Shown: positions 3,001-25,363 of the stretch, piece after piece
Layout: every line of letters starts with the position of its first letter
Numbering within the stretch: the first letter of the stretch is position 1
DNA from: Candidatus Promineifilum breve
GTDB taxonomy: Bacteria; Chloroflexota; Anaerolineae; Promineifilales; Promineifilaceae
NCBI RefSeq assembly: GCF_900066015.1
Contig: NZ_LN890655.1
Span: 310,001 to 374,000 of the forward strand
Direction of reading: 5' to 3'
DNA length: 64,000 bases
Translations under genes and position numbers: made by a program
The notes under the pieces: generated by a model
What the model was told of the DNA's origin: nothing
Seen by the model: only the letters and a program-made list of their open reading frames with translations
Database searches by the model: none

Positions 3001-3949
3001 CGGGGGCCAGCGCCGGATCGCCGCCGGGGGCCAGCAGCCACTCGAAGGCGGCATGAATATTGCTGTCCCGGATGATGCCATGCTCGTCGGCGATGGCGAC
3101 GGCGATCCAATTGGCTCCGGGGGCGACGCCGATACCCTTATGGCCGACGGCCGTGCCGGCGACGTGGGTGCCGTGGCCGTGGAAATCGACGGGAACGGTT
3201 TGTGTCGGCTGCACAGTGTTGTACCAGTTACCGTGGTGGACGGCCGTCTCGCCCCGGCCGCCGCGGTAGTTCTGGCGCAGCGCGGGATGCTGCCAATCGA
3301 CGCCGGTATCGACGATGGCGACGGTGACGCCCGCGCCGTCGTTGCCCAACAGGTTCCAGACGGCCGGGGCGCGCATGGCGTCGATAGACCAATTAGCCGC
3401 CTCGCCCGCCTCGGCCGTCGGCGCGTCGGCCAACCCGGCGAAGCGAAAGTCAGGCGCGCCGCCGGAGTCTGTCATGGCGACGGCCGGCTCACCGAACGCC
3501 TCGTGCTGCTGGTCGAGGGCGACGTTGGCGACGCCGGGCCGGGCGGTCAGCTCGCCGGCCAGTTCCGGGGTCACCGTGGCGGCTATGGCATTGATGATCC
3601 AAAAGGAGCGAACATTCTGTACCCGGCCGGCCCTGGCGAAGGTGGTCAGCTCGGCCAATAGGGGCGCTTGCGATGCCGCGGCCACGCTCTTCAGTTGGTC
3701 GATGATGGCCCCCCGACGTTCCACACTGTTGCCAATCCTGGCCGAAGCCGACAGATCGGCCGCCTGCTCCATCCGGATGATGACGTCCACCATACCCGCG
3801 GCAGAATCGCCCGGAGACGTGGCGCTCGGCGCGTCCGGCGGGTAACTTTCCGGTTGGGCCGTTGCCACCACCATGAGGCGCAACAGCAGGAATAGCGCCG
3901 CGCCGGCGGCCAGACAAGCGATGAAGATGGGGGCGGGACGAGCCGACAT
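1..3949 (-). CDS. Secreted subtilase-family (S8) serine protease, C-terminus beyond window
   Basis: At least 1316 residues are visible on the minus strand in one uninterrupted frame; the gene runs off the window start. Residues about 8-28 are a hydrophobic signal or anchor, and residues 45-165 resemble an I9-type propeptide. The catalytic triad is clear: Asp214 in AIVDTGVDW, His259 in HGHGTHVAG and Ser423 in NGTSMATPHV, with the oxyanion Asn in VNNSWGS. After the protease come a carboxypeptidase-regulatory-like beta sandwich (GRISDPTGAPVAA, about residue 465), a second such domain, and two segments that start LLLIDSG and YVLIVDDD. The visible end (LSLTKTATT) looks like a DUF11-type stalk repeat. 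It is an extracellular protease, probably surface-attached. The start ATG at 3949 is the first in frame before the signal segment. Substrate unknown. Confidence 0.9.
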   Translation of the reverse strand, partial: MSARPAPIFIACLAAGAALFLLLRLMVVATAQPESYPPDAPSATSPGDSAAGMVDVIIRMEQAADLSASARIGNSVERRGAIIDQLKSVAAASQAPLLAELTTFARAGRVQNVRSFWIINAIAATVTPELAGELTARPGVANVALDQQHEAFGEPAVAMTDSGGAPDFRFAGLADAPTAEAGEAANWSIDAMRAPAVWNLLGNDGAGVTVAIVDTGVDWQHPALRQNYRGGRGETAVHHGNWYNTVQPTQTVPVDFHGHGTHVAGTAVGHKGIGVAPGANWIAVAIADEHGIIRDSNIHAAFEWLLAPGGDPALAPDVVNNSWGSSGAHAAFLDDVRVLDAAGIVAVFAAGNSGPGDGSINAPASYPGAISVAATDATGAVTWFSSHGPSPLTAEPKPLLSAPGAQILSSYPNERYALMNGTSMATPHVTGAVALMLSAEPRLSPGDVKSRLAAAAGNPVHDPARGWGQLDAYAAVAPLAAAGTLAGRISDPTGAPVAATITVTTPAGRAVTLVTDPQGRYEVKALPGRYDLQAAAYAYSPGVVRKVEVIPGHVVVNDVELEFLPAGNLSLQLSHAGSGEQLQGALRITTADGRPVPEPARQPDGRYAMSLPTGQYQVTARVPGFRLGTVGVTIAADQTHAVDVALTPGPRLLLIDSGPWQYRSQAAYYDQALEDNNYFADRWSITNPYAPLPTVQQLAAYDVILWSAPNDSPGYLGANGVISDYLGLGGRLLIAGQNVANYDGVNGSMALWWSRHLKAKWLADSSPADPLHGAPDTPFAAHQLTLNGADSAGNQTAPDRVAPRDGSLTQPVLLYPDGTAAALLSRRCEPFRLLYFGFSLEGVSGRAARAALMQTTLDVLLGPDDPLAAIWQPAEVTDFALGGDQHAYTATLRNLNPVLTQTFAIEAGGGWWPRAVLTPTLTIPPCGAADTVVTVDVPAGQPPDSHHEVALTARGPNAVDSPTPIALSINHKTPGYVLIVDDDRFIHTESVYKQALDELGMAYDVWETGWPFDLRGSPSFAFLREYELVIWFTGYDWFQALTHQETAAITDYLEHGGRLFLSSQDFLFRHHDSALARDYLGVVSYQESITPTVAFFDERLGAPPQLSSSQPLTYGAYQNYSDGLAPSANARPFLWHNQGAVAATAAGGTAANGRPWRAVFWALPFETLPAGQQTAAMEAVLGYLSDLGNSTFTVDRRSGPVSESRVYSLVVANEADVARRVWVTNTLPISLSFRGSAGDWTYDRAKRQLTWSGVMAAGEERSLTYTAAAAPTNDQAHRIDNSVTIGYAPLSAAESTAPFNHLSLTKTATTWIDAPD

Positions 3950-4001
3950 GGCGTTGATTATACTGCCGCCATGGCCGTAAACCCACGGGCGGCCGGCAAC
4001 A

Positions 4002-4031
4002 AAAAAGCCATCCCGCGATGGATGGCTTTTT
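4002..4031 (-). terminator. Rho-independent terminator after the DUF59 gene
   Basis: Inverted repeat with 12-base arms (4002-4013 and 4020-4031) and a 6-base loop. The arms end in runs of A and T, so it can work in both directions. It lies between the stop of the DUF59 gene and the start of the subtilase gene, both on the minus strand, and separates the two transcripts. Confidence 0.8.
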
Positions 4032-4061
4032 GAACCGTTGCATGTCGTACGTGGTCGCGGG

Positions 4062-4367
4062 CTAAAACAGCCCCCAATCGCCGCCGGCCCCTTCTTCCAT
4101 CATCGACGGATCCCACAGCTCCATGCCGATCTCGACCAGGACGCCGCCGGGTATGACTTGATTGCCCACCATACGTACCTGCTCGATCAGTTGCGGCCCA
4201 TAGGGGCAAAACGGCGTGGTCAGGATCATGGTGATTTTCATTTTGTCCGTGTCCGGGTCGGCTTCCACGGCCCGCACCAACCCCAACTCCACGATGTTCA
4301 AGCCGATCTCCGGGTCGATTACGGAGCGGAGAGACTCCATCAGTTGTTCTTCTTTACTGGCGATCAT
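4062..4367 (-). CDS. DUF59 / MIP18-family iron-sulfur assembly protein
   Basis: 101-residue PaaD/SufT-like protein. It shows the family signature DPEIGLNIVELGLV near residue 18 and the conserved cysteine in TTPFCPYG. Members help mature or transfer Fe-S clusters in the cytoplasm. I chose ATG 4367 because GAGG sits just upstream and family similarity begins there; the longer in-frame extension overlaps the upstream gene and looks non-coding. It starts 17 bases after the stop of the SufR-like gene, so the two form a small operon divergent from sufCBD. That context supports a role in the SUF pathway. Confidence 0.9.
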   Translation of the reverse strand: MIASKEEQLMESLRSVIDPEIGLNIVELGLVRAVEADPDTDKMKITMILTTPFCPYGPQLIEQVRMVGNQVIPGGVLVEIGMELWDPSMMEEGAGGDWGLF

Positions 4368-4384
4368 TCTTGCCTCGCTAAACG

Positions 4385-5083
4385 TTAGTTCATTTCTTTG
4401 ACAGTTTTGATGACAGTGGCCGGTTGCCCGCCGGTGTCGATGGTAAACTGGCAGCAACTGGCCCCGTGGAGCATGCAGCTTTCCTGGTGGACGCGCAATT
4501 GCAGCACGCCACTCATCAATTGCCGGTCGAAATTGCATACCTCGGCGTGGGTGCTGCCGATTGACAGGTAAGGGCAGCTATACTCCACCAGCCGATAGCC
4601 ATCCGGTGTCCGCTCCCACGTCGAGAGGAAGCCTTCCTCGGACAGCAGCTTCACCAGATAGTCCAGCCGTTGCTCCAGCGCCAGATGCTCAAATTCGCCG
4701 CGATGTTCCCGCAGGACGGTATCCACAACCCCTTCGAAGATTTCGGCCAACAGCTTCTCCGGGAGACGATCTTTCATCTCATCCAGCAAGCGGCTGGTCA
4801 GGCGGACGTAGCGCTTGGGAAACAGTTCCTGGCCGCGCTCGCTCAGGGAGTAGACGTAGTAGGGGCGGCCGACCTTGCGGCGAATCGTGGCCGATTCAAT
4901 CGTCCCTTCGGCCTGGAGCGCGTTTAGATGATGGCGAACGGTGACGGGGGAGATATCGGCCGCTCCGGCCAACTCCTCGACCGTCGATTGCGGCGACGAC
5001 TTGATCGTATGAAGGATGATATCGCGCGTCGTCCGTTTCTTGTGGTTGGGCCGGCTATATTCGTCCGCTTGCATACGCATCAT
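4385..5083 (-). CDS. sufR: SufR-like winged-helix repressor with cysteine cluster
   Basis: 232-residue transcriptional regulator. Residues about 17-75 form a DeoR/ArsR-type winged helix (ILHTIKSSPQSTVEELAGAA, then SPVTVRHHLNAL). The C-terminal half holds five cysteines, Cys170, Cys183, Cys203, Cys210 and Cys211. The Cys-x12-Cys spacing of the first pair matches the start of the cluster motif in cyanobacterial SufR, which binds an Fe-S cluster and represses the suf operon. It is divergently transcribed from sufC, as in cyanobacteria. Cluster binding is inferred. The ATGs at 5083, 5080 and 5074 are all possible; no clear Shine-Dalgarno sequence decides. Confidence 0.88.
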   Translation of the reverse strand: MMRMQADEYSRPNHKKRTTRDIILHTIKSSPQSTVEELAGAADISPVTVRHHLNALQAEGTIESATIRRKVGRPYYVYSLSERGQELFPKRYVRLTSRLLDEMKDRLPEKLLAEIFEGVVDTVLREHRGEFEHLALEQRLDYLVKLLSEEGFLSTWERTPDGYRLVEYSCPYLSIGSTHAEVCNFDRQLMSGVLQLRVHQESCMLHGASCCQFTIDTGGQPATVIKTVKEMN

Positions 5084-5131
5084 TGTTGGTGGGATAATCG
5101 TCCGGGCTTGTTATAGGGAACTGGTCGCTTT

Positions 5132-5163
5132 GGTTGGGTAAGAGATTGAACCCTTACCCGACC
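5132..5163 (-). promoter_or_regulatory. Inverted repeat in the sufR mRNA leader
   Basis: Arms 5132-5142 and 5153-5163 (GGTTGGGTAAG with its complement, one G-T pair) around a 10-base loop. It lies downstream of the minus-strand promoter and upstream of the sufR start, so it would be a hairpin in the leader or a protein-binding site. Confidence 0.45.
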
Positions 5164-5217
5164 GGGATAATAAGTTTACTGGACATTATACCCACACTTA
5201 AAATCATTCCCCGTGGC

Positions 5218-5246
5218 ATTATAGCAATTCCTATCAATGATGTCAA
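5218..5246 (-). promoter_or_regulatory. Consensus sigma-70 promoter for sufR
   Basis: On the minus strand TTGACA (5241-5246), a 17-base spacer and TATAAT (5218-5223): exact consensus at both boxes. A second TATAAT on the same strand is at 5184-5189, without a good -35. Confidence 0.85.
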
Positions 5247-5257
5247 TTTATGGTATT

Positions 5258-5277
5258 TTTATCATCATTATGATAAA
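5258..5277. promoter_or_regulatory. Palindromic operator candidate between divergent suf promoters
   Basis: TTTATCAT (5258-5265), four bases, then its exact complement (5270-5277). It sits between the two -35 boxes (5241-5246 minus; 5280-5285 plus), two bases from the plus-strand box. A dimeric repressor here could block both promoters. The sequence is not the CAAC-N6-GTTG site described for cyanobacterial SufR, so assigning it to SufR is inference. Confidence 0.6.
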
Positions 5278-5279
5278 TA

Positions 5280-5308
5280 TTGACGCTCTAATAACGCTAT
5301 GCTATAAT
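5280..5308 (+). promoter_or_regulatory. Sigma-70 promoter for sufCBD
   Basis: TTGACG (5280-5285), 17-base spacer, TATAAT (5303-5308). Predicted transcription start is near 5315, giving a leader of about 95 bases with a GAGGAG ribosome site before sufC. Confidence 0.85.
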
Positions 5309-5408
5309 TTTGACTGCCTGTCCCTAGCAGGCCGCCTATAACAAAACCAATTTGCGGGCAAGCCATCTGAATCACTCCCCGCAATCGCTTTGAGGAGCTC
5401 ACTGTACG

Positions 5409-6191
5409 ATGACTGTTGCGTTGGAAATCAATAATCTCCACGTCAATATTGGAGAAAACCGCATCTTAAAAGGCATCAACCTGTTGGTGAAACAGGGTGA
5501 GATTCACGCCCTAATGGGGCCGAACGGCTCGGGCAAGAGTACATTGGCCTACACCCTGGCCGGCCATCCAGCCTACGAGCCTTCGGCAGGGCAGGTCACC
5601 TTTGACGGCAAGGATCTGCTGGAGATGGAAGCCGACGAGCGTTCGCGCGAGGGCCTGTTTCTGGCCTTCCAATATCCGGTGGCCGTGCCCGGCGTGACGG
5701 TCGCCAAGTTCTTGCGCCAGGCCATCAACTCCCGCCGCAAGGCCCTCAACCCCGACGACAAAGGCATGCCCATCCCCGAATTTCGCCGCCTGCTGCGCGA
5801 CAAGATGGACATCCTGGGCATCGACCAGAAATTCGCCGGCCGCTATCTGAACGAAGGCTTCTCCGGCGGCGAGAAGAAGCGGGCCGAGATCTTGCAGATG
5901 GCGATGCTGGAGCCGAAGATCGCCATCATGGATGAGACCGACTCCGGCCTCGACATCGACGCCCTGCGCATCGTGGCCGAAGGGGCGGGCCGGTTGCACG
6001 ACTTGAATCAGATGGGCGTGCTGGTCATCACCCACTACCAGCGCATCCTCAACCACATCCAGCCCGATCACGTCCACATCATGCTCGACGGCCGCATCGT
6101 CGAGAGCGGCGGCTCTGAGCTGGCCCTGCATCTGGAAGAGAACGGCTACGACTGGCTGCGCGAGAAGTATGGCACAGCGGAGGTGGCATAG
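5409..6191 (+). CDS. sufC: SufC, ATPase of the SufBCD scaffold
   Basis: 260-residue ABC-type ATPase of the Fe-S cluster assembly scaffold. Walker A is GPNGSGKST, the signature is the SUF-specific FSGGEKKRAE, and Walker B is AIMDETDSGLD. SufC binds SufB and SufD in the cytoplasm and drives the conformational change needed for cluster assembly; it is not a transporter. GAGGAG lies 12 bases before ATG. The stop is directly followed by the sufB start, so the genes are translated from one mRNA. Confidence 0.97.
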   Translation: MTVALEINNLHVNIGENRILKGINLLVKQGEIHALMGPNGSGKSTLAYTLAGHPAYEPSAGQVTFDGKDLLEMEADERSREGLFLAFQYPVAVPGVTVAKFLRQAINSRRKALNPDDKGMPIPEFRRLLRDKMDILGIDQKFAGRYLNEGFSGGEKKRAEILQMAMLEPKIAIMDETDSGLDIDALRIVAEGAGRLHDLNQMGVLVITHYQRILNHIQPDHVHIMLDGRIVESGGSELALHLEENGYDWLREKYGTAEVA

Positions 6192-7631
6192 ATGACTGAA
6201 CAACTCCTGGAACGCGACGTAACCGAAAACGAAATGCTGGCCGGCGTCAATGATGATTACGCCACCAAGTATGGCTTTGCCGATGTCGAGGATTACGTCT
6301 TTAAGGCCGAGCGCGGACTGGATGAGAAAGTCGTCCGTTCCATTTCGGCCATGAAGGGCGAACCGGAATGGATGCTGAACATACGTCTTCAGGCCTACCG
6401 CAACTTCCTGGATCGGCCCATGCCGGACTGGGGGGCTGATCTGTCCGGCATTGATTTCGCCAACATTTTCTACTACATCAAGCCCTCGGCCCAGCAGGAA
6501 GATTCGTGGGAGGACGTGCCCGGCTACATTAAGGACACGTTCAACAAGCTGGGCATTCCCGAAGCGGAGCAGAAGTTCCTGTCGGGCGTGGCCGCGCAAT
6601 ACGAATCCGAGGTGGTCTACCACAGCATCAAGAAAGAGCTGGAGGCGAAGGGCGTCATCTTCCTGGGCATGGACGATGGCCTGGCCCAATACCCCGACCT
6701 CGTAAAAGAGTATTTCGGCACGATCATCCCGCCCAACGATAACAAATTCGCGGCGCTGAACACGGCCGTCTGGTCGGGCGGCAGCTTCATCTACGTGCCG
6801 CCGGGCGTCCACATCGAGATGCCGCTGCAAGCCTATTTCCGCATCAACGCCAAGAACGTGGGCCAATTCGAGCGCACGCTGATCATCGTCGATGAGGGGG
6901 CTTACGTCCATTACGTCGAGGGCTGCACCGCGCCGGTCTATTCGTCCGACTCGTTGCACTCGGCCGTGGTCGAGATCATCGTCAAGAAGGGCGGCCGTTG
7001 CCGCTATACGACCATCCAGAACTGGTCGAACAACGTCTACAATCTGGTCACCAAGCGGGCGATGGCCTACGAAAACGCCACAATGGAGTGGGTTGACGGC
7101 AATCTTGGCTCCAAGGTGACGATGAAATACCCGGCCGTCTATCTGATGGGCGAGGGCGCGCACGGCGAAATCCTGTCCATCGCCTTTGCCGGCAAGGGCC
7201 AGCACCAGGACGCGGGCGGGAAGGTCGTCCACATGGCGCCCCGCACCAGCAGCCGGATCATCTCCAAATCGATCAGCAAGGGGGGCGGCCGTGCTTCCTA
7301 TCGTGGCCTGCTCAAGGTGGCCGAGGGCGCGTTCGACTGCAAGTCCAATGTCGTCTGCGATGCCCTGCTGCTGGACGAGAACAGCCGGTCGGATACCTAT
7401 CCCTACATCGAGATCAACGAGCAAGACGTGACCATCGGCCACGAGGCATCGGTCAGCAAGGTCGGCGAGGAGCAGGTCTTCTACCTGATGAGCCGCGGCA
7501 TTGCTGAGGACGAGGCCAACGCCATGATCGTCAACGGCTTCATCGAGCCGCTGGTCAAGGAATTGCCGATGGAGTACGCCATCGAAATGAATCGCCTGAT
7601 TCAACTGCAAATGGAGGGTAGCATTGGCTGA
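6192..7631 (+). CDS. sufB: SufB, Fe-S cluster scaffold subunit
   Basis: 479 residues, the usual SufB length. The core beta-helix motifs are present, including [20 protein letters not shown] and the C-terminal [18 protein letters not shown]. Cys389 in VVCDALL aligns with the conserved cysteine that accepts sulfur in SufB. It assembles clusters with SufC and SufD. The start abuts sufC and the last 8 bases overlap sufD, which indicates translational coupling. Confidence 0.97.
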
Positions 7632-12177: not shown

Positions 12178-14679
12178 GTGCCATTTATGGAAGTCGGTTT
12201 AATCAAACAGGTCAATATCGATCAGGAGATGCGCGAGAGCTACCTGAGCTACGCGATGAGTGTCATCGTGTCGCGCGCCCTGCCCGATGCCCGCGACGGG
12301 TTGAAGCCGGTGCAGCGCCGCATCCTCTACGCCATGTACGACATGGGTCTGCGGCCCGAAACCTCCTACAAAAAATCAGCCCGCGTCGTGGGCGAAGTGT
12401 TGGGCAAGTATCACCCGCATGGCGACCAGCCGGTTTACGAGGCGATGGTGCGCATGGCCCAGGATTTCTCCATGCGCTATATGCTGGTCGATGGGCAGGG
12501 CAATTTCGGCTCGATTGACGGCGACGCCGCGGCAGCCATGCGCTACACCGAGGCGCGCATGTCGTCGATGGGCTTTGACCTGCTGGAAGACATCGACAAG
12601 AACACCATCGACTTTGAGCCGAATTTCGATGATTCGCTGCGCGAGCCGAGCGTGTTGCCGGCCACCATCCCCAACCTGCTGGTCAACGGCTCATCGGGCA
12701 TCGCCGTGGGCATGGCGACGAGCATCCCGCCCCACAACCTGGGCGAGATCGTCGGCGCGCTGGTCTACATGCTCGACAACTGGGCCGGCCTCGACGACAT
12801 CTCCGTGGCCGACCTCATGCGCTTCGTGCAGGGGCCGGACTTCCCGACCGGCGGCCTCATCGCCCGGCAGCGCGGCGACGGCGACGAGACCGACGCTATC
12901 GCCGCCGCCTATGCCACCGGCCGCGGCCGGGTCGTCGTGCGCGCCCGCGCCCACATCGAGCAGATGGGCCGCAACAAATCGCGCATCATCATCACCGAGA
13001 TCCCGTATCAGGTCAACAAGACCAACCTGCTGGGTCGCATCGCCGACCTGCACCGCGATGGCCGTCTCGAGGGTCTCACCGACCTGCGCGACGAGTCCGA
13101 CCGGCGCGGCTTGCGCATCATCATCGAGACGACGCGCACCGTCGATGCCGAAGACGTGCTGGCCGACCTGTTCCGCCTGACCCCCTTGCAATCGACGTTT
13201 AGCATCTCGCTGTTGGCTCTGGTCAACAACGAGCCGCGCGTGCTGACCCTCAAGCAAGCCCTGCGCTACTATCTGGAGCACCGGCTGGAGGTGATTCGCC
13301 GCCGCAGCCAGTACGATCTGGATAAGGCCCGCCAGCGCGCCCACATCCTGCAAGGATTGCTCATCGCTCTCGATCATCTGGATGAGGTCATCGAACTCAT
13401 CCGCCGCTCGCGCTCGGCCGACACGGCCAAGACCAACCTCATCGAGCGCTTCAAGCTGTCCGAGGAGCAGGCCCAGGCCATCCTCGATATGCAACTGCGC
13501 CGGCTGGCGACGCTGGAGCGCAAGAAGATTCAGGACGAATACAAAGAAAAGGTGGCTCTGATCAAGGAGCTGGAAAAGCTGCTCGACCACCCGGAACTGA
13601 TGCGCCAGCAGATCAGGAAAGAACTGCTGGAGGTCAACGAGAAGTTCGGCGACAAACGCCGCACCCAGATCGTCGATACCGTCAACGGCGGGGTACTGAC
13701 CAGCGCCGGCCTGTTGCCCGACGAACAGGTGTGGGTCATGGTCGGCGAGAAGGGCACGCTGGGCCGCGCCGCGGCCGTGCCGGCCATGGCCCGCAAGCCG
13801 CTGGAGCAGCCGGCGGCCCTGCTGCGCGCCGGCACGCGCGACGTCCTCTACCTGCTGTCGGCCTCGGGTCGCGCCGTGGGTTTGCCGGTGCACCGCATCC
13901 CGGAGAGCGAGGAGATCGGCAAGGGGGAGTCGTGGACCAACCTGACCCCCTTGGGACGCGCCGATCATCTGGCGGCCGTCTTCTCCCTGTCGCCCGATGA
14001 ATCGCGCGAGGGCTACCTGTTCCTGACCACGCTGGCCGGTGTCGTCAAGCGCGTACGGCTGGAAGATCTGCCGGGCGTGACGACCGAGCCGTTCACGGTC
14101 ATCAACGTGGCCGAGGATGATGCGCTCGGCTGGGCGCGGCTGACCAACGGTGGGCAGGAAGTGTTGCTGGCTTCCTCCAGCGGCCAGGCCATCCGTTTCA
14201 GCGAGGACAGCGTGCGGCCGATGGGCCTGCCCGCGTCCGGCGTGTTGGGCATCAAGCTCGACAGCGATACCGACGGCATCGTCGGCATGGATGTGGTTTC
14301 GCCCAATAGCTTTGTCTGGAGTATAACCGACAATGGTCTGGCCAAGGCGACGCCGATTGACGACTACCCGCTGCAAAACCGGTATGGTCAGGGGGTCATC
14401 AACCTGCGCCTGCCCAAGGGGGCCAACGAAGTCGTCGCCACCACGCTGCTGACGAAAGGGGCGACGCTGATCGTCACTACCAGCGGCGGGGTGACCAAGC
14501 GCATTGGCCTGAGCGACACCGTGCTCGGCGCGCGCAGTGTGCGGCCCCAGGCGGCCCTGACCCTGGCGGCCAAGAGCCGGGTCACCGGCGTTGTCCTGCC
14601 GCTGGCCGACGGCGCGACACCCAAAAAAGATGTCAGCGCTTCTGAACCACCAAAGAAGCGTCGTAAAGCTACCCCATAG
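12178..14679 (+). CDS. gyrA: Type IIA topoisomerase subunit A (GyrA/ParC family)
   Basis: 833 residues, normal for GyrA. The catalytic tyrosine is Tyr123 in [24 protein letters not shown] and the coiled-coil gate are intact. It cuts and reseals DNA with a GyrB/ParE partner. The C-terminal beta-pinwheel from about residue 505 is present, but I find no QRRGGKG-type GyrA box, the motif needed for introducing negative supercoils. In the quinolone pocket, Gln84 and Glu88 replace the usual Ser and Asp. It may therefore be a topoisomerase IV-like or variant gyrase subunit. The start is GTG 12178; ATG 12187 is an alternative, and neither has a clear ribosome site. Confidence 0.93.
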
Positions 14680-14704
14680 ACTAGAGTGAACCTGGAGAAT
14701 TGAC

Positions 14705-15274
14705 ATGAACTTTCGAGATCGTTGGGCGGAAAATGAGGCGGGCGAACGCTATGTCTTTACCGTGGAGATGCAGCGCCGTCTGAGTCAGGCGGGATTGCCC
14801 CTTGACCCGTCGTCCTTGCCCAAATTGGCCGCCATGCCCAGCGCCGCCCGCCCCCCGCGCGAGCAGCGCAATGATTGGGGCGATCGGGAGCGCGCTGATC
14901 GTCCGGAGCGCGAACGCAACGACCGGCCGGAGCGGGAACGCCCGGAGCCGGCCGCCCGTCCGCAGCAACAGCCGCAGGCAGCCTATCAGGACGATCGCCC
15001 CGCGCGCGAAGCCGAGATCGTCGGCCCGGAGACGATCCAGATCGATCCCATGACCGGCAAGTACATCGGCCGGGTCAAGTGGTATAACACCAAGAAGGGC
15101 TATGGCTTCATCGTCCGCGGCGCGGGCGAGGAGATTTTCTTCCACAAGTCGGCCACCGTGGGCGAGATGGAAGAGTTCGAGGAAGGGCAGTGGGTGCTCT
15201 ACGACGTGGAGACCACGGCTAAAGGCCCCGAGGCGTCGGACGTGGAGCCGTATACCGGCGAACCGGTGGAGTAG
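14705..15274 (+). CDS. Cold-shock-domain protein with charged N-terminal extension
   Basis: 189 residues. The C-terminal 65 or so form a CspA-like domain with RNP1 KGYGFIV and RNP2 IFFHKSA, binding single-stranded nucleic acid. The first 35 residues look structured; residues 50-100 are a disordered Arg/Glu/Pro/Gln stretch with repeats of RPERER type. Ordinary Csp proteins are about 70 residues, so this is a fused, longer form. It is 25 bases after gyrA with a GGAG site and may share its transcript; a long palindrome follows. Confidence 0.88.
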   Translation: MNFRDRWAENEAGERYVFTVEMQRRLSQAGLPLDPSSLPKLAAMPSAARPPREQRNDWGDRERADRPERERNDRPERERPEPAARPQQQPQAAYQDDRPAREAEIVGPETIQIDPMTGKYIGRVKWYNTKKGYGFIVRGAGEEIFFHKSATVGEMEEFEEGQWVLYDVETTAKGPEASDVEPYTGEPVE

Positions 15275-15277
15275 GCC

Positions 15278-15415
15278 GACCACCGACGACAGACCGCCGA
15301 CCGCCGTAGGAAAAACGCCAAGACGCCAAGACGCAAAGAAAGATAAATTCTTTCTTTGCGTCTTGGCGTCTTGGCGTTAAATCATGCCGTGGTCGGTGGT
15401 CTGTCGTCGGTTGTC
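15278..15415. terminator. Nested palindrome between convergent genes
   Basis: The core is a perfect 29-base inverted repeat (15314-15342 and 15350-15378) with a 7-base loop; each arm contains tandem AAGACGCC words. Outside it, GACCACCGACGACAGACC (15278-15295) pairs with 15398-15415 with one mismatch. It lies between a plus-strand and a minus-strand gene and overlaps the end of the permease gene, so it is well placed as a bidirectional terminator. Confidence 0.75.
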
Positions 15416-16403
15416 ATTCTTTGGCTACCCCGCTGCCGTGTACCAGCCGCGGGTCGAGCGCGTCGCGCAGGCCGTCGCCCAACAGGTTGAAGGCCAGCAC
15501 GGTGACCATGATCGCCAGGCCGGGGAAGAAGACCAGGTGGGGCGCGCTGAAGACCTGATTGCGCTCGATCGCCAGCATGGAACCCCACTCCGGCGTCGGC
15601 GGCTGCGCGCCGAGGCCGATGAACGACAGGGCGGCCGTGTCCAGAATGGCCGTGGCGATACCCAGCGTCGCCACGACGATGAGCGGCGGCAGCGAATTGG
15701 GCAGGATGCGGCCGAAGAGGATGCGCCAGTTGCTGGCCCCCAGCGCCCGCGACGCCTCAATGAAGGCCATCTCGCGCACCGAGAGGACGCTGGCCCGCGT
15801 CACGCGGGCATAGACGGGGACGCTGATGACGGCAATCGCCAGCATGGCGTTGGTGAGGCCCGGCCCCAGGACGCTGACGATGGCGATAGCCAGCAATAGA
15901 AAGGGGAAAGCCAGCACCACGTCGAGAATACGCATAATTACGTTGTCGAGCCAACCGCCCAGGAAGCCGGCGACCGCCCCCAGCATCGTCCCGGTGATGA
16001 CGGCGAAGCTGACCGTGAGCAAGCCGACGTAGAGGGACACGCGCGTGCCGTAGATAATGCGGCTGAACACGTCGCGGAAGTTGCCGTCGATGCCCATGAT
16101 GTGCTGAGGGCGATCCGACGGGCAACCCAGGATGTGGATGCACGGCCCTTCGCGCTTGCCCACGTCCTCGATACCGATGAGCGGCTGTTCCGGGTCATAG
16201 GGGGCGATCAGCGGCGCAAAGATAGCGCTGAAGATCAGCAGCCCCAACAAGATCAGCCCCAGAACGGCCGAACGTTGCCGGAAGAGCCGGCGGTAGGTCA
16301 GCCGCCACAGGCTATTGGCGCGGTAGCTGCCGATGTTGCCGATGTGGGCATCATCCAGCGGCGGCAGGGTGGTGACGGGGGTCGGCTCGGGCACGGTTTC
16401 CAT
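15414..16403 (-). CDS. ABC transporter permease, DppC/OppC type
   Basis: 329-residue inner-membrane permease of peptide/opine/nickel importers. It has the N-terminal OppC_N segment (SLWRLTYRRLFRQRSAVLGL) and the EAA loop IEASRALGASNWRILFGRIL that docks the ATPase. Five to six membrane helices are apparent. It is the third gene of a binding protein-DppB-DppC operon, starting 3 bases after the DppB stop. No ATPase gene is adjacent, so ATPases must come from another locus. Confidence 0.93.
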   Translation of the reverse strand: METVPEPTPVTTLPPLDDAHIGNIGSYRANSLWRLTYRRLFRQRSAVLGLILLGLLIFSAIFAPLIAPYDPEQPLIGIEDVGKREGPCIHILGCPSDRPQHIMGIDGNFRDVFSRIIYGTRVSLYVGLLTVSFAVITGTMLGAVAGFLGGWLDNVIMRILDVVLAFPFLLLAIAIVSVLGPGLTNAMLAIAVISVPVYARVTRASVLSVREMAFIEASRALGASNWRILFGRILPNSLPPLIVVATLGIATAILDTAALSFIGLGAQPPTPEWGSMLAIERNQVFSAPHLVFFPGLAIMVTVLAFNLLGDGLRDALDPRLVHGSGVAKE

Positions 16404-16406
16404 GTG

Positions 16407-17486
16407 TTAGTCCAGTTGAATGCGCGGATCAAGGATGGCGTAGGACAGATCGACGATGAGATTGACCATCACATAGCCGATGGCGATGACGACGACGAAG
16501 CCCTGGATGATCGGATAATCCCGGGCGGTGATGGCTTCATAGAGGCTGCGGCCGACACCGGCCAGGCCGAAGGTGGTCTCGGTCAGGATGGCCCCGCTGA
16601 GCACCAGACCGAACTGCAAGCCGATGATGGTGACAATCGGCAACAGCGCATTGCGAAAGGCATGCTTCATGACGACTTGCTGTTGCCGCAGACCCTTAGC
16701 CTTGGCCGTGCGCACGTAATCCTGGCCCAGCACTTCCAGCATGGCCGAGCGGGTCATGCGGGCAATGATCGCCAACGGGATAGTTGCCAGAGCGACGGCC
16801 GGCAGAATTAAATGGCGCACGGCGTCGATGAACACTTCCCAGTCGGCGGTGATAAGCGAATTAAAAATGTAGAAATTACTGATGAATTCGGCCAGGCTGG
16901 CGCGGAAAGTCCCTTCCGTCAATTGCCAGCCGTACACCTCGTAGAAGGGTATGGGATTGACGCCGGGCGATAGGCGGCCGCTGGGTGGTAACTGAAAGGG
17001 CGTGTCCTTCAGCAGCAGGGCAAAGATGTAGATCAGCATGAGGCCGAGCCAGAAGACCGGCATGGAGACACCGATGTTGGCCCCGACCATTGTCGCCACG
17101 TCGGTAAGGGAATTGCGGCGCAGGGCCGAAATAATCCCTAAGGGAATGCCGATGGAGACCGCGAGGATGACCGACGTCATACCCAGTTCAATGGTTTGCG
17201 GCAGGCGCTCGATGAGAATTTCCATTACCGAACGCTTGAAGCGAATGGACTCGCCAAAGTCGCCGCGCAGCATGTCACGGGCAAAGATGGCGAATTGGGT
17301 GGTGAGGGGTTTGTCCAGCCCTTTTTCGGCGTTAAAGACGGCGCAGACTTCCGGCGTGGCCTTTTCGCCAAACATCGCGGTGCATGGCTCGCCGGGGATA
17401 GCGCGGGCCAGGGCGAAGGTAACGATTAGGACACCGATGACCACGGGGATGGCGGCCAGGAGACGACGAATTGCATATTGGGTCAT
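16407..17486 (-). CDS. ABC transporter permease, DppB/OppB type
   Basis: 359 residues with the canonical N-terminus YAIRRLLAAIPVVIGVLIVT and EAA loop VRTAKAKGLRQQQVVMKHAF. The periplasmic loop after helix 1 includes two cysteines (EPCTAMF and EVCAVF). It forms the translocation pore with the DppC-type protein downstream. It is 124 bases after the binding-protein gene, with a hairpin in between. Confidence 0.93.
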   Translation of the reverse strand: MTQYAIRRLLAAIPVVIGVLIVTFALARAIPGEPCTAMFGEKATPEVCAVFNAEKGLDKPLTTQFAIFARDMLRGDFGESIRFKRSVMEILIERLPQTIELGMTSVILAVSIGIPLGIISALRRNSLTDVATMVGANIGVSMPVFWLGLMLIYIFALLLKDTPFQLPPSGRLSPGVNPIPFYEVYGWQLTEGTFRASLAEFISNFYIFNSLITADWEVFIDAVRHLILPAVALATIPLAIIARMTRSAMLEVLGQDYVRTAKAKGLRQQQVVMKHAFRNALLPIVTIIGLQFGLVLSGAILTETTFGLAGVGRSLYEAITARDYPIIQGFVVVIAIGYVMVNLIVDLSYAILDPRIQLD

Positions 17487-17525
17487 ACTGCACCTTCGGT
17501 TACTGCGCGCGGCCCGGATGATAGC

Positions 17526-17561
17526 GCGGCGGGATGGGGGCCTAGCCCGCCATCCCGCCGC
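17526..17561 (-). terminator. Hairpin between binding-protein and permease genes
   Basis: Exact 12-base arms (17526-17537 and 17550-17561), and the 12-base loop contains a further GGGC/GCCC pair. No T-run follows on the minus strand. It may stabilise the upstream binding-protein mRNA or cause partial termination before the permeases. Confidence 0.6.
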
Positions 17562-17610
17562 CTAATGTCTACAGAGTTACATGGTACGTTTCGCTAACTT
17601 GCCGGAGCGC

Positions 17611-19439
17611 TTACTCGGCCGGGGGAGCATTCAGGAAGCCGCCCCACAGCGCCGAGAAGTAGGAGAACGCGCCGGTGTTGCCGACGTGGAGCGGATGGGC
17701 CGCATCCCACTGGATAACGTAGGACATCACCACGTCGTTGGCGTCCAGGGCCGAACCATCGTGGAAGGTGACGCCTTCGCGCAGGGTGCAGGTCCAGACG
17801 GTCAGGTCTTCGTTGGGCGTGCAGGCCGTAGCCAGCGCCGGCTCGACAGCCGTGCCACCCACTTCATAGGCCAACAGCGCTTCGGTGACCTGCTCGCAGG
17901 CCCGCAGCGACTCGCCGTCGGTCTCGTCGGCGCAGTAGAGGCTGATCGGCTCGGCGTTCTGCATCCAGACAAAGGTGTCCTTGCCCGGATCCATCTTGGA
18001 GAACGCTTCGTTGCCCAGCGGGCTGACGTGGGCGTTCTGGACGGCGGCCAGGTAGGCCACGCCGGAACCGCCATGCGCCACCGGAATCATGGGCACCAAC
18101 TCGCGGATCAGGTTGTTGGCCTCAATATAGAGCGGCTCGCGGTCGGCATCGCTGGCCAACGAGGCGGCCTCAGCCAACACGGTGGTCAACTCCTCGTGGT
18201 GATCACCGAATTGGGCCGAGGAGCCGGCGCCGAAGTGGTAATCAACGAAGTTGGTCATGTCGGGGTAGTCGGCGCCCCAACCCAGCAGATGCAGCCCTTC
18301 AATCGTGCCGGCGTCGGCCGCTTCCAGGAACGCGCCGGACTCCATGACCACGATCTCGGCCGTGATGTTCAGGTTCTCGGCCAACTGGGCCTGGATGTCC
18401 TGAGCGACGATGTTGGGGTCGGGCAGATAACCGCGCACGACGTCACGATAGGAGATCGTCGTCTCGAAGCCATCGGGGAAACCGGCCTCGGCCAGCAGTT
18501 CGCGGGCGGCCTCGGGGTTGAACTCATGCCACGGGTCGCCGGCGCAACCATTGGGGATGGAGCACGGCGTGAAGTGGCTCGCCACCTCGGAGCCGGGCGG
18601 GTAGAAGTTATCGACGATGCGGCCCCGGTCGATACCCATGGCGATGGCCTGGCGCACCAGAACGTTGTCGAACGGCGCGAAGGTGTTGTTCATGCCCACG
18701 TAGAAGATGTTGAGGGCCGGGCGCTCCAGCAGTTGCAGGTTGGCGTCGGCGGCGATCGACTCGAAGTCATCCGGGGCGGGGTTGTCGATACCGTCAACCG
18801 TGCCGGATTGCAGCTCCAGCAGTCGCGCGGCCGACTCGGTCTGCCAACGGAAGACGAGCGTCTCGGCGACGGCCGGCTCGCCCAATAGTTGGCGTTCTTG
18901 GTGAAGGTCAATTCTTCGCCACGGCTCCACTCTTCAACCATGTAGGGGCCGGTACCGATGGGGGCCTCCAGCAGGTCGCCCGTGGCGCCGGTGGCCTCCA
19001 GATTCTCGGACGGGTGAATGGCGAACGAGGTAAAGGCTGCCTTCGACGGGAAGGCCGGATCGGGGGCGCACATCGTAAACTGCACCGTCAGGGGGTCGAT
19101 CGCGGCGATCTCCTTGAACAGACCGGTGTAGCCTTCGGTGTCGCATTCGGTGCCGACAACCATCAGGTCGCCGGCCGGTTCTTCGGCGACGGGTTCGGCC
19201 GTGGCTTCGGCGGTCGCTTCGCCGCCGGCCAGTTCGGTCGCGGCGGCCGCAACGGTTGGCGCGACTTCCTCGACGGCGGCCTGGACGGTCGGGGCCAGTT
19301 CGGTCGCGGCGGCGGCCAGGGTCGGCGCTACTTCTTCAATCGCTTGCTGGACATCGCCGCTTGTAGCTGTACAGGCGGTGATGGCCAGAGCGGCGAGGAG
19401 AAGTAATCCCAATAACAACAACACACGATTCTTCTTCAT
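17611..19439 (-). CDS. Family-5 solute-binding lipoprotein, circularly permuted, with one-base frameshift
   Basis: About 609 residues when the frameshift is bridged. The N-terminus is a lipoprotein signal (lipobox ITAC), then a helical linker repeating EEVAPT and AAAATELA. The SBP_bac_5 domain is in unusual order: it opens with the middle of the fold (AIDPLTVQFTMC, then IGTGPYMVEEW and NANYW), continues through the normal C-terminal half, and ends with what is normally the N-terminal part (PISLYCADETDGESL, then LREGVTFHDGSALDANDV about 57 residues from the end). A missing G at 18880-18883, just after Trp186, changes the frame from NYW to GEPAVAETLVF; no other lesion is seen. ATG 19439 has AAGGAG 8 bases upstream. 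It binds peptides or similar solutes outside the membrane for the two permeases. Confidence 0.88.
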
Positions 19440-19496
19440 CTCTTTCACTCCTTGCGTGACTTAAGCCCGGCAGACGCGGGCCTTATAAGGGTCAGA

Positions 19497-19524
19497 AGAA
19501 TAGCATGATGGAGGGAAAAGGCAA
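19497..19524 (-). promoter_or_regulatory. Possible promoter of the permuted binding-protein operon
   Basis: On the minus strand TTGCCT (19519-19524), a 16-base spacer and TATTCT (19497-19502). The predicted leader is about 50 bases. Confidence 0.45.
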
Positions 19525-19581
19525 GGCTTTGGCGTATAAGTGGCATTGAAGGGTCAAAATAGTGGCGGGTGGCGGGTAGCA

Positions 19582-19650
19582 AGTAGCGGGTGGCGGGTAG
19601 CGGGTGGCGAGTAACCCTAACTCGCCACTCGCTACCCGCCACTCGCTACT
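19582..19650. repeat. 31-base palindrome of tandem GGCGGGTA-like words
   Basis: Arms 19582-19612 and 19620-19650 with two mismatches and a 7-base loop. Arms consist of degenerate repeats such as GTAGCGGGTGGCGG; similar words continue outward from 19561. It lies between divergent genes, so it is not a simple terminator. Confidence 0.8.
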
Positions 19651-19665
19651 CGCCCCTCCTCACTA

Positions 19666-19671
19666 TATAAT
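19666..19671 (+). promoter_or_regulatory. -10 box placed for a leaderless polX mRNA
   Basis: TATAAT ends 7 bases before ATG 19679. The expected transcription start therefore falls on or next to the start codon. No good -35 box is visible; the palindrome occupies that position. Confidence 0.5.
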
Positions 19672-19678
19672 GGTACGA

Positions 19679-21415
19679 ATGAAGAATCGTGAGATCGTGG
19701 AAATATTCAGCCGGGTGGCCGATATGCTCGCCATTCGCGGCGACCAGATTCATCGCATCCTGGCCTATCGCAAGGCGGCCGAGAGCATCGAGGCCCTGGG
19801 GCGCGATGTCAACGTCGTCTATGCCGAGGGCAAGCTGACCGACATCCCCGGCATCGGCGATACCCTGGCGGCCAAGATCGAGGAGATGCTGACCACCGGT
19901 CGGCTGGCGTTCTACGACAAGCTGGCGGCCGAGATTCCGCCGTCGCTGGTCGATATGCTGCGCGTGGAAGGGCTGGGGCCGAAGCGCGTCAAGCAGGTTC
20001 ACGACGTGCTGAAAATTTCCACCCTCGATGAACTGACCGTGGCCGCGCGCGAGGGCAAGTTGCGCGATTTGCCCGGCATGGGGGCCAAGTCGGAAGCCAA
20101 GTTGCTGGCGGCTATCGAGGCGCTGGCCCGCCACGGGGACGCGCGTATTCCGCTGGGCGTGGCCTTGCCCATTGCCCAACAGATGCTGGCCGAGTTGTCC
20201 AAAGTACCCGGCGTCGTGCAGGCGGCCGTGGGCGGCTCGTTGCGACGTATGCGCGACACCACCGGCGACATCGACTTGCTGGTGGCCGCCGCTGATGTGG
20301 CCGCGGTCATGGATCGCTTCGCCGCGCTGGATAACGTCGAGTCCGTGGCCGGCCGCGGCCCGACCAAGACCAACGTCGTGCTGTTGAACGGCCTGGGCGC
20401 CGATCTGCGCGTGTTGCCCGCCGAGCGGTGGGGCACGCTGCTGGTTTATTTCACCGGCAGCAAAGACCACAACGTCAAATTGCGCGAGATGGCCCTGAAG
20501 CGCGGCCTCAGCCTGAACGAGCACGCCTTCACTCCCCTCGACGGCGGGCCGGAAATCCTGTGCGCCACCGAAGAGGAAGTCTATCATCGCCTGGGGCTGC
20601 CGTTTATTCCGCCCCGTCTGCGCGAGGATCGCGGCGAAATCGAGGCCGCCTTGGCCGGCAAGCTGCCCACCCTGGTGACAGAGAGCGACATCCAGACCGA
20701 CCTGCATATGCACACCACCTGGTCCGACGGCTCGCTCAGTGTGCTGGAGATGGCGAGGGCGGCTCAGGCGCGCGGCCTGCGGGGCGTCGTCATCACCGAT
20801 CACTCGGTCAGCCTGGGCATCGCCAATGGCCTGTCGGTGGAGCGCCTCAGGCAGCAGGCGGCCGAGGTGCGGGCCGCCGACGCGGCCATGGGGCCGGACT
20901 TCCGCGTGCTCCACGGCACGGAGATGGAAATTCGCGCCGACGGCTCGCTCGATTATCCCGACGAGGTGCTGGCCGAACTGGACGTGGTCGTCGCCAGTCT
21001 GCACACGGCCCTGAGCCAGCCGCGCGAACAGGTGACACAGCGCCTGCTGAACGCCATTCGCAACCCCCACGTGGACATCATCGGCCATCCGACCGGCCGG
21101 CTCCTGCCCGATCGGGCCGGGGCCGACCTGGACATGGATGCCGTCATCGCCGCCGCGGCCGAGACCGGGACGATCCTGGAGATCAACGCCAACCCGGTGC
21201 GGCTCGACCTGCGCGACGTCCACGCCCGGATGGCGATCGAAAAGGGGGTCAAGATCGCCATCGATACCGACGCCCACAGTCCCGGCGAGTTCGACCTGCT
21301 GCCCTACGGCGTGGCGACGGCGCAGCGGGGCTGGGCGACGGTGGCCGATGTCGTGAATACGTGGCCCATCGCCGACCTGTTGCGCTACGTCAATCGCCCC
21401 CATGCCGGAGGATAA
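19679..21415 (+). CDS. polX: DNA polymerase X family protein with PHP domain
   Basis: 578 residues, the usual PolX length. Helix-hairpin-helix motifs (DIPGIGDTLAAKI; LPGMGAKSEAKL) are followed by the nucleotidyltransferase centre GGSLRRMRDTTGDIDLLV, with the catalytic acidic pair in GDID. The C-terminal PHP domain starts DLHMHTTWSDGSL and ends IDTDAHSPGEF; it usually gives a metal-dependent 3'-5' exonuclease. The protein acts in gap-filling base-excision repair. ATG 19670 is a second candidate 9 bases upstream, but a TATAAT overlaps it. Confidence 0.95.
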   Translation: MKNREIVEIFSRVADMLAIRGDQIHRILAYRKAAESIEALGRDVNVVYAEGKLTDIPGIGDTLAAKIEEMLTTGRLAFYDKLAAEIPPSLVDMLRVEGLGPKRVKQVHDVLKISTLDELTVAAREGKLRDLPGMGAKSEAKLLAAIEALARHGDARIPLGVALPIAQQMLAELSKVPGVVQAAVGGSLRRMRDTTGDIDLLVAAADVAAVMDRFAALDNVESVAGRGPTKTNVVLLNGLGADLRVLPAERWGTLLVYFTGSKDHNVKLREMALKRGLSLNEHAFTPLDGGPEILCATEEEVYHRLGLPFIPPRLREDRGEIEAALAGKLPTLVTESDIQTDLHMHTTWSDGSLSVLEMARAAQARGLRGVVITDHSVSLGIANGLSVERLRQQAAEVRAADAAMGPDFRVLHGTEMEIRADGSLDYPDEVLAELDVVVASLHTALSQPREQVTQRLLNAIRNPHVDIIGHPTGRLLPDRAGADLDMDAVIAAAAETGTILEINANPVRLDLRDVHARMAIEKGVKIAIDTDAHSPGEFDLLPYGVATAQRGWATVADVVNTWPIADLLRYVNRPHAGG

Positions 21416-21416
21416 T

Positions 21417-22697
21417 GTGCCAATAACGGACTTTTCCGGCGCGGCGGCGGCCGACGACTTCCTGGCCGTTGAGGAGAGTAACACGCTCGATGCCCATATG
21501 GTCGGCGTTCTCCAGCGTATTGCCGACGTTAAAACCTATCCGGCCGATACCACGCTGGTGCATCAGGGGGAGCGCGAGCGCACCTTCTACGTGGTGGATA
21601 GCGGCAGCGTGGTCGTTCTGCGCCGTACTGAGGATGGCGAAGACCGCCAACTGGGCTTGCTGGGGCCGCGCCAATCGTTTGGCGAGATGGCCCTGGTGGA
21701 CGATAGCCCCCGCCTGGCGACGGTGCGGACGCTGACCGAGACGACCGTGCTGGAGGTGACCGCCGATCGCTTCAAGGCGCTGCTCCACACCGATCCCGAC
21801 CTGGCCTTCCACATTACTCGGCGCATCCTGTCCAATCTGCGCAAGCTGGATCAATTGGCCCTCCACGACCTGCGCACCAAGAATGAGTTGCTCCAGCAAG
21901 CCTATCAGGATTTGCAGGCCGCCCAGTTGGTGCTCATCGAGAAAAAGCGGCTGGAGCGCGAGATGGAACTGGCGGCCGAGATGCAGCGCAGCCTGTTGCC
22001 GGCCGTCCTGCCCAGCTATCCCGATTATCACTTCACGTCATACCTGGCCCCGGCCCGGCACGTAGGCGGCGACCTGTTCGACGTGCGCGCGCTGGACGAG
22101 GAGCACGTGGCCTTGCTCATCGCCGACGTGGCCGATAAGGGCGTCCATGCCGCGCTGCTGATGGCCGTGACGCGCACGCTGTTTTTTCAGGAAGCCCTGC
22201 GCTCCCTTTCGCCGCGCGACGTCGTCTACGCCGTGCACCAGGGGCTACTCTCCATTGGCGGCGCAACCGAGGGGTATGGCATGGATGCCTTTGTCACGGC
22301 CTTTTATGCCGTCCTCCACCGGCCGAGCGGGCGACTGCGCTACGTGCGCGCCGCCCAGGATCGGCCCTTGCTGCTGCGCCGGGGCGAACCGGTGGTGGCG
22401 TTGCCGGGGGATGGGCGCTTCCTGGGGATGCTGCCCGATCTGACGCTGCAAGAACACGAGACGACCCTGAGGCCGGGCGATTTTTTGTTGCTCTATAGTG
22501 ATGGCGTGCCCGACGCGCGCAACACGCATGATGAAGCGTATGGCCTGGAACAGCTAAAATCGGCCCTGCGCGCCGCGCTAGAGAGGGATGAGAATCGCGT
22601 GATGGATTGGCTCGTCGGCGATATTAATCGGTGGCGGGCCGGAGCACCGGCGTTTGATGATGTAACCATGTTGTTGGTTCGTGCGCTGGACGGGTAA
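21417..22697 (+). CDS. Cyclic-nucleotide-binding domain fused to SpoIIE/RsbU-type phosphatase
   Basis: 426 residues. Residues about 25-140 form a CAP-ED domain (QSFGEMALVDDSPRLATVR is the phosphate-binding cassette), followed by a coiled coil (QQAYQDLQAAQLVLIEKKRL) and a PP2C-type phosphatase (AEMQRSLLP, HVGGDLFDV, IADVADKGVHAALLM, LLLYSDGVPDARN). This suggests a cAMP- or cGMP-controlled phosphatase acting on an anti-sigma antagonist. GTG 21417 has GGAGG 5 bases upstream and starts just after the polX stop; ATG 21402 in the same frame is an alternative. Confidence 0.92.
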   Translation: MPITDFSGAAAADDFLAVEESNTLDAHMVGVLQRIADVKTYPADTTLVHQGERERTFYVVDSGSVVVLRRTEDGEDRQLGLLGPRQSFGEMALVDDSPRLATVRTLTETTVLEVTADRFKALLHTDPDLAFHITRRILSNLRKLDQLALHDLRTKNELLQQAYQDLQAAQLVLIEKKRLEREMELAAEMQRSLLPAVLPSYPDYHFTSYLAPARHVGGDLFDVRALDEEHVALLIADVADKGVHAALLMAVTRTLFFQEALRSLSPRDVVYAVHQGLLSIGGATEGYGMDAFVTAFYAVLHRPSGRLRYVRAAQDRPLLLRRGEPVVALPGDGRFLGMLPDLTLQEHETTLRPGDFLLLYSDGVPDARNTHDEAYGLEQLKSALRAALERDENRVMDWLVGDINRWRAGAPAFDDVTMLLVRALDG

Positions 22698-22733
22698 TCC
22701 GGCCGGTCGCGGGCCGATATTGGCAAAGACTCT

Positions 22734-25363
<2,630 letters not shown>

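Follow-up and report, generated by a model that had tools for sequence, protein, structure and literature searches.

A natural circular permutant has already been described among the solute-binding proteins (SBPs). TpMglB-2 (Tp0684) of Treponema is a circularly permuted cluster B glucose-binding lipoprotein, for which its authors proposed the term 'cluster Bc'; they suggested that the permutation is an adaptation to tethering, and a segment swap had been considered (PMC4990184). It is the nearest precedent for the family described here. Both are lipid-anchored at the N-terminus and occur as natural SBP permutants in a bacterial clade, but the present family belongs to another SBP cluster (TpMglB-2 is of cluster B, for sugars) and has another break point. 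Moreover, the permuted part of TpMglB-2 is poorly conserved, whereas the segments of the present family are all clearly homologous and co-evolving, and the family holds several permutations. In the open-access papers searched, no description of a permuted family-5 SBP was found. The other described proteins that serve for comparison are DppA and GbpA (HbpA), of cluster C and Pfam family PF00496 (SBP_bac_5). Their chains run from the N-terminal segment (N) through the middle (M) to the C-terminal lobe (C). The protein described here is homologous to them over its whole length once it is rotated, keeps the equivalents of DppA Asp408 and Arg355, has the same predicted lobes, and is encoded alongside DppB/DppC-type permeases. 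In contrast to DppA and GbpA, its order is M-C-N and not N-M-C, its lipid anchor enters at the accessory domain, it has a clade-specific cysteine pair, and ATPase genes are not adjacent.

The gene occupies positions 17611..19439 of the window, that is, the whole stretch of 64,000 nucleotides of Candidatus Promineifilum breve analysed here. The gene and its operon are encoded on the minus strand, to which all coordinates of their parts refer. The product is a family-5 solute-binding lipoprotein of circularly permuted order, and its frame is split by a one-base frameshift. As read from the sequence, it begins with a putative signal peptide with a lipobox (..ALAITAC; 19371..19439), whose lipid-anchor Cys codon is at 19371-19373, followed by a low-complexity Ala/Glu/Thr/Pro linker (19167..19370) leading from the anchor to the core. 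The first part of the folded core is segment M (18682..19166), the usual middle, equivalent to DppA residues of about 122-260, as placed by PF00496 positions 64-148, a segment HMM and PDB mapping. Segment C (17980..18681), the usual C-terminal lobe with the chain end, was placed by its segment profile and PDB mapping. Segment N, which corresponds to DppA residues up to about 118, is here the last part (17623..17979; PF00496 2-50; PDB mapping E 1.3e-16). It contains the motif LREGVTFHDG (17755-17784), which begins 57 codons ahead of the stop codon, as the preliminary description had stated. In the alignment, the old C-terminus and the old N-terminus are joined at 17974..17997 (..K-MDPGK-DTFVW..) by a linker of only a few residues.

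The out-of-order arrangement reported in the preliminary description was confirmed: Pfam, PDB-sequence and segment-profile mapping all agree on M-C-N. In order of translation, the PF00496 pieces are 64-148 (E 7.9e-17), 146-365 (6.3e-39) and 2-50 (5.7e-13). The two open reading frames of the window gene score 183 and 63.2 bits against the cut-off of 32.4, a clear match to SBP_bac_5, while the co-linear N-to-C order of the profile is absent. Among the 12 family-5 loci of the genome, 11 are co-linear, including the two at 31894 and 47986/48001 that had been named as controls of normal order, and only the window gene is out of order. The profile of the N segment aligns to GbpA (3m8u) 10-126 (E 1.3e-16) and DppA (1dpp) 33-118, so that LREGVTFHDG would hold the N-terminal position expected of it, and the M-C profile aligns to GbpA 121-502 (E 1e-66) and DppA 123-504. 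The two matches are complementary, meet at one point and jointly span the canonical chain; thus, they support the interpretation of the gene as a circular permutant. A six-frame scan of positions 14000-23000 (9 kb) found M, C and N once each, in agreement with the earlier statement that there is neither duplication nor truncation. As in a natural permutant, both parts come from one parent, each is single-copy, the coverage is full, and the old ends are joined.

Is this order peculiar to one genome? I analysed 400 genomes sampled evenly across the phylum Chloroflexota. By segment profiles applied to all fetched open reading frames, the distinct frames comprise about 99 M-C-N, 34 canonical, 2 C-N-M and 2 C2-N-M-C1 proteins, row counts that take in related sequences from a sampling partly drawn from the same taxa. 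By the count of listed rows, M-C-N proteins occur in 56 of the 400 genomes (54 with full-length proteins, the window genome and G208), and their carriers belong to at least 13 families. They include three single-contig genomes (G048, G063 and G389) and a culture record, that of Chloroflexales bacterium ZM16-3. A lipobox was found in 81 of the 99 M-C-N rows. It had been asked whether the order marks a clade spanning the Anaerolineae. The clade was recovered; its limit to the Anaerolineae was not, as other classes have it too and further permutations exist.

A tree of 98 rows, rotated to a common order, contains three changes of order in total. The N-only tree and the M-C-only tree each part the M-C-N and C-N-M rows from the rest with one change, and the N and M-C distances correlate with r = 0.93. 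Since the segment trees are concordant and the distances correlate so closely, N shares the history of M-C; one gene has been re-threaded, and no tail was recruited. On the tree, the M-C-N form is an ancient clade of single origin across the Chloroflexota, with long branches and an unsure deep branching and M-C-N root. The deepest M-C-N row, of L111, is unplaced on the tree. The lone match from an Acidobacteria MAG (L058) nests inside the window's own Chloroflexota family, and is likely a bin contamination rather than a transfer.

Several loci have further peculiarities. In three genomes of one family (L101, L102 and L103), a divergent M-C-N gene adjoins an opposite-strand canonical N-M-C family-5 gene. 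L112 has a tandem pair of M-C-N SBP genes whose frames slightly overlap (3041-6482). In L011, L013, L025, L031 and L109, a whole family-3 SBP domain is fused ahead of the M-C-N core, so that a single chain holds two receptors. A haem-binding CxxCH stretch is present as well in L013, and a fasciclin domain in L024. The canonical member of L111 has an upstream domain of the family-3 SBP kind too. An N-terminal SBP_bac_3 fusion was considered as the cause of the permutation and dropped, because canonical members such as that of L111 also carry upstream domains.

The fold was predicted with AlphaFold2 for an intact relative (L034), using 25 sequences and no templates; the model has a pLDDT of 83.6 and a pTM of 0.79. 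An order-dependent structural aligner placed model residues 13-396 on residues 144-531 (entry numbering) of GbpA (3m8u), with Z 29.2 and an rmsd of 2.8 over 382 residues. The N segment went unmatched by this aligner, and its position was matched by sequence only; it is left over at the wrong end, as expected of a permuted chain under an aligner that depends on order. The predicted fold is of the cluster C type with an accessory domain, as modelled for residues 13-396 and as matched by sequence for the N part. No homology with the cluster B (type I) sugar-binding proteins was found: PF00496 is the sole Pfam family matched by the window gene, the sequence matches of the N and M-C profiles to solved structures are family-5 proteins, and no sugar-type cluster B protein is among the structural-aligner matches listed, which span model residues 1-396. 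When folded alone, the N segment gave a pLDDT of only 42.6, while within the whole chain most of it reached about 80-96, with lower values over roughly the last 20 residues. Since it is modelled poorly alone and well within the chain, the N segment would belong to the fold itself and would not be a domain added to it.

The residues that contact the ligand in the relatives are largely kept. The Arg equivalent to DppA Arg355, which I take to be a peptide-binding residue, is encoded at 18433..18435, and the Asp equivalent to DppA Asp408 at 18268..18270, both as placed by alignment. The former is present in 91 and the latter in 95 of the 99 M-C-N rows, and all C-N-M and C2-N-M-C1 rows have both. 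In DppA, Asp408 forms a salt bridge to the amino terminus of the peptide (PMC3295651). These two residues suggest a peptide-like ligand class for the M-C-N proteins. The window protein is not claimed as DppA, because the DppA equivalog profile NF043070 gave 182.8 and 221.3 bits for two relatives, far below the cut-off of 1005.

In the permuted clade only, the alignment rows have a Cys8-type codon near the new N-terminus (19143..19145 in the window) and a Cys33-type codon at the end of the next strand (19068..19070), a candidate disulphide partner. Both cysteines occur together in 90 of 97 M-C-N rows and 2 of 2 C-N-M rows; the 29 canonical rows all lack the pair. It may be that a Cys8-Cys33 disulphide staples the new N-terminus to the next strand.

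The gene heads an SBP-DppB-DppC operon, which is kept in relatives. The permeases are BPD_transp_1 proteins of the DppB type (16407..17486; PF00528 and PF19300) and the DppC type (15414..16403; PF00528 and OppC_N). No ATPase gene adjoins the operon. A gene for a PolX-type DNA polymerase with a PHP domain is divergent beside the SBP operon, both in the window (19604-21415) and in a related species (L060:2557-4302). At 14705-15274, the window also encodes a cold-shock-domain protein whose N-terminus is extended by a long stretch rich in Arg, Asp, Glu and Pro. By homology, predicted fold and operon, the window protein would belong to SBP_bac_5, and by the order of the profile it would not; it is best described as a permuted variant.

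It was revealed that the family contains two further orders. The C-N-M order was found in two Thermoflexales genomes, at L061 (Thermoflexales bacterium BIN20; G503 is the same place) and at L115 (G524), whose proteins are about 90% identical over the aligned core. Their break probably lies at the lobe boundary, in the loop that leads up to VRQAIAM, close to GbpA residue 272-278. The C-N-M rows nest inside the M-C-N rows, next to an M-C-N protein (L122). Their N-M junction (FLEVPPATATDTKYEAPNCDYGG) consists of an M-C-N-type C-terminal tail followed by an M-C-N-type N-terminal start, and the clade-specific cysteine pair is present as well. Because of the nesting, the retained tail and start and the cysteine pair, the alignments indicate that the C-N-M form is a re-permutation of an M-C-N ancestor.

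The C2-N-M-C1 order, in which the chain starts and ends within lobe C, was found in two species of the window's own family (L106 in G016 and L107 in G018). Over their length, these proteins share about 70-73% identity with canonical ones such as those of L136 and L143; by segment, L106 is 82% identical to its canonical relatives in N, 75% in M and 71-74% in C. The C2-N-M-C1 rows nest among canonical proteins on the tree, and their break falls where a loop stretch carried by canonical members (SEVTIAEDILDAEGNVVYKAGDKIP) is gone. This form derives from a canonical ancestor. Taken together, the sequences show that the chain order has been altered at three different places in one family, on at least three separate occasions.

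The reading frame of the window copy requires comment. The preliminary description had taken 17611-19439 as a single open reading frame, joining two frames without comment. The frame is not open in the assembly; it is broken at about 18882 into two open reading frames (18690-19448 and 17611-18930), which leaves the conclusion on the order unaffected. Relatives have one intact frame, and comparison with them places the frameshift at 18881..18883, where they read GGGG and the window reads GGG. In the comparison with L034, the part before the shift has a dN of 0.112 and a dS of 0.697, and the part after it has 0.069 and 0.435. It is possible to read the frameshift as the mark of a pseudogene decaying in the source genome, but this is unlikely, since dN/dS is about 0.16 on either side, close to the 0.13 of an intact pair of relatives, and the missing base comes from a run of G. 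The rates indicate that both sides are under purifying selection, which makes a sequencing slip the probable cause of the frameshift. The assembly (5.03 Mb in 3 contigs) suggests long reads, and the dropped G is probably a homopolymer error typical of them, a recent genuine frameshift being the less likely cause.

The order itself might be mimicked by an assembly chimera or by read-through of two neighbouring SBP genes, a danger that had been recognized from the start. The window copy is indeed frameshifted, and SBP genes adjoin in some relatives (L101-L103, L111 and L112). However, unrelated assemblies, the single-contig genomes and the ZM16-3 culture record among them, yield the same order in about 99 distinct frames; these form one clade, their N and M-C trees agree, and the 9 kb scanned around the gene hold no second copy of N, M or C. 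I regard such an artefact as extremely improbable. A segment swap, in which the original N was lost and an N-like stretch was recruited at the C-terminus from a different SBP gene, might account for N being somewhat better conserved against canonical proteins than M and C are (51% versus 42% and 36% for L033). It is nevertheless quite improbable: the N-only tree puts all M-C-N and C-N-M rows on one side of one branch, like the M-C tree, the distances correlate as given above, and all the C2-N-M-C1 segments agree on their canonical relatives (82, 75 and 74%). A domain-swapped oligomer, with the lobe of one chain completed by the N segment of another, is compatible with the sequence and with the modelled failure of the N segment to fold alone, but the C-N join is only a few residues long and the single-chain model folds with a pTM of 0.79, and I consider such an oligomer highly improbable.

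The explanation that I favour, with a probability of about 0.91, is that the window gene encodes a membrane-anchored, DppA-like (SBP cluster C) binding lipoprotein of dipeptide/oligopeptide type, part of an ABC importer, and that this protein has genuinely been circularly permuted in nature. The opening would lie in a loop of the small accessory domain (at about DppA residue 119-122), and the former C- and N-termini, both in domain I, would now be linked by a few residues. The likely route is the usual one, in which the gene is duplicated in tandem and the two outer ends are then lost; tandem M-C-N pairs such as that of L112 exist. In solution, the protein would still adopt the Venus-flytrap fold with its usual two lobes, hold peptide-like ligands between these and pass the ligands on to the neighbouring DppB/DppC permease pair, with ATPases supplied from elsewhere. 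The permutation would leave the ligand cleft intact. Since the lipid Cys and linker are always ahead of whichever core segment comes first, the tether would now attach to the accessory domain and not to domain I. More tentatively, the Chloroflexota family-5 SBPs may be a naturally re-threading fold, in which three loops (of the accessory domain, the lobe hinge and domain III) were opened in three or more independent events, including one re-permutation. The permuted forms might have persisted by virtue of an anchor moved to another face and a new disulphide staple, altering how cargo is presented to the permease.

It is rare, and valuable, for a natural circular permutant to have close relatives that are not permuted. 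Permuted proteins of this kind are probably annotated as truncated, because standard family profiles match only pieces of them. SBPs are common scaffolds for biosensors, where break points tolerated by evolution would be useful. With canonical, once-permuted and re-permuted members in one transporter family that is both large and conserved, the Chloroflexota would provide a natural test bed for re-threading, and a permutant about 73% identical to canonical proteins would allow a direct test of what chain order costs or gains in folding, ligand closure and anchoring.
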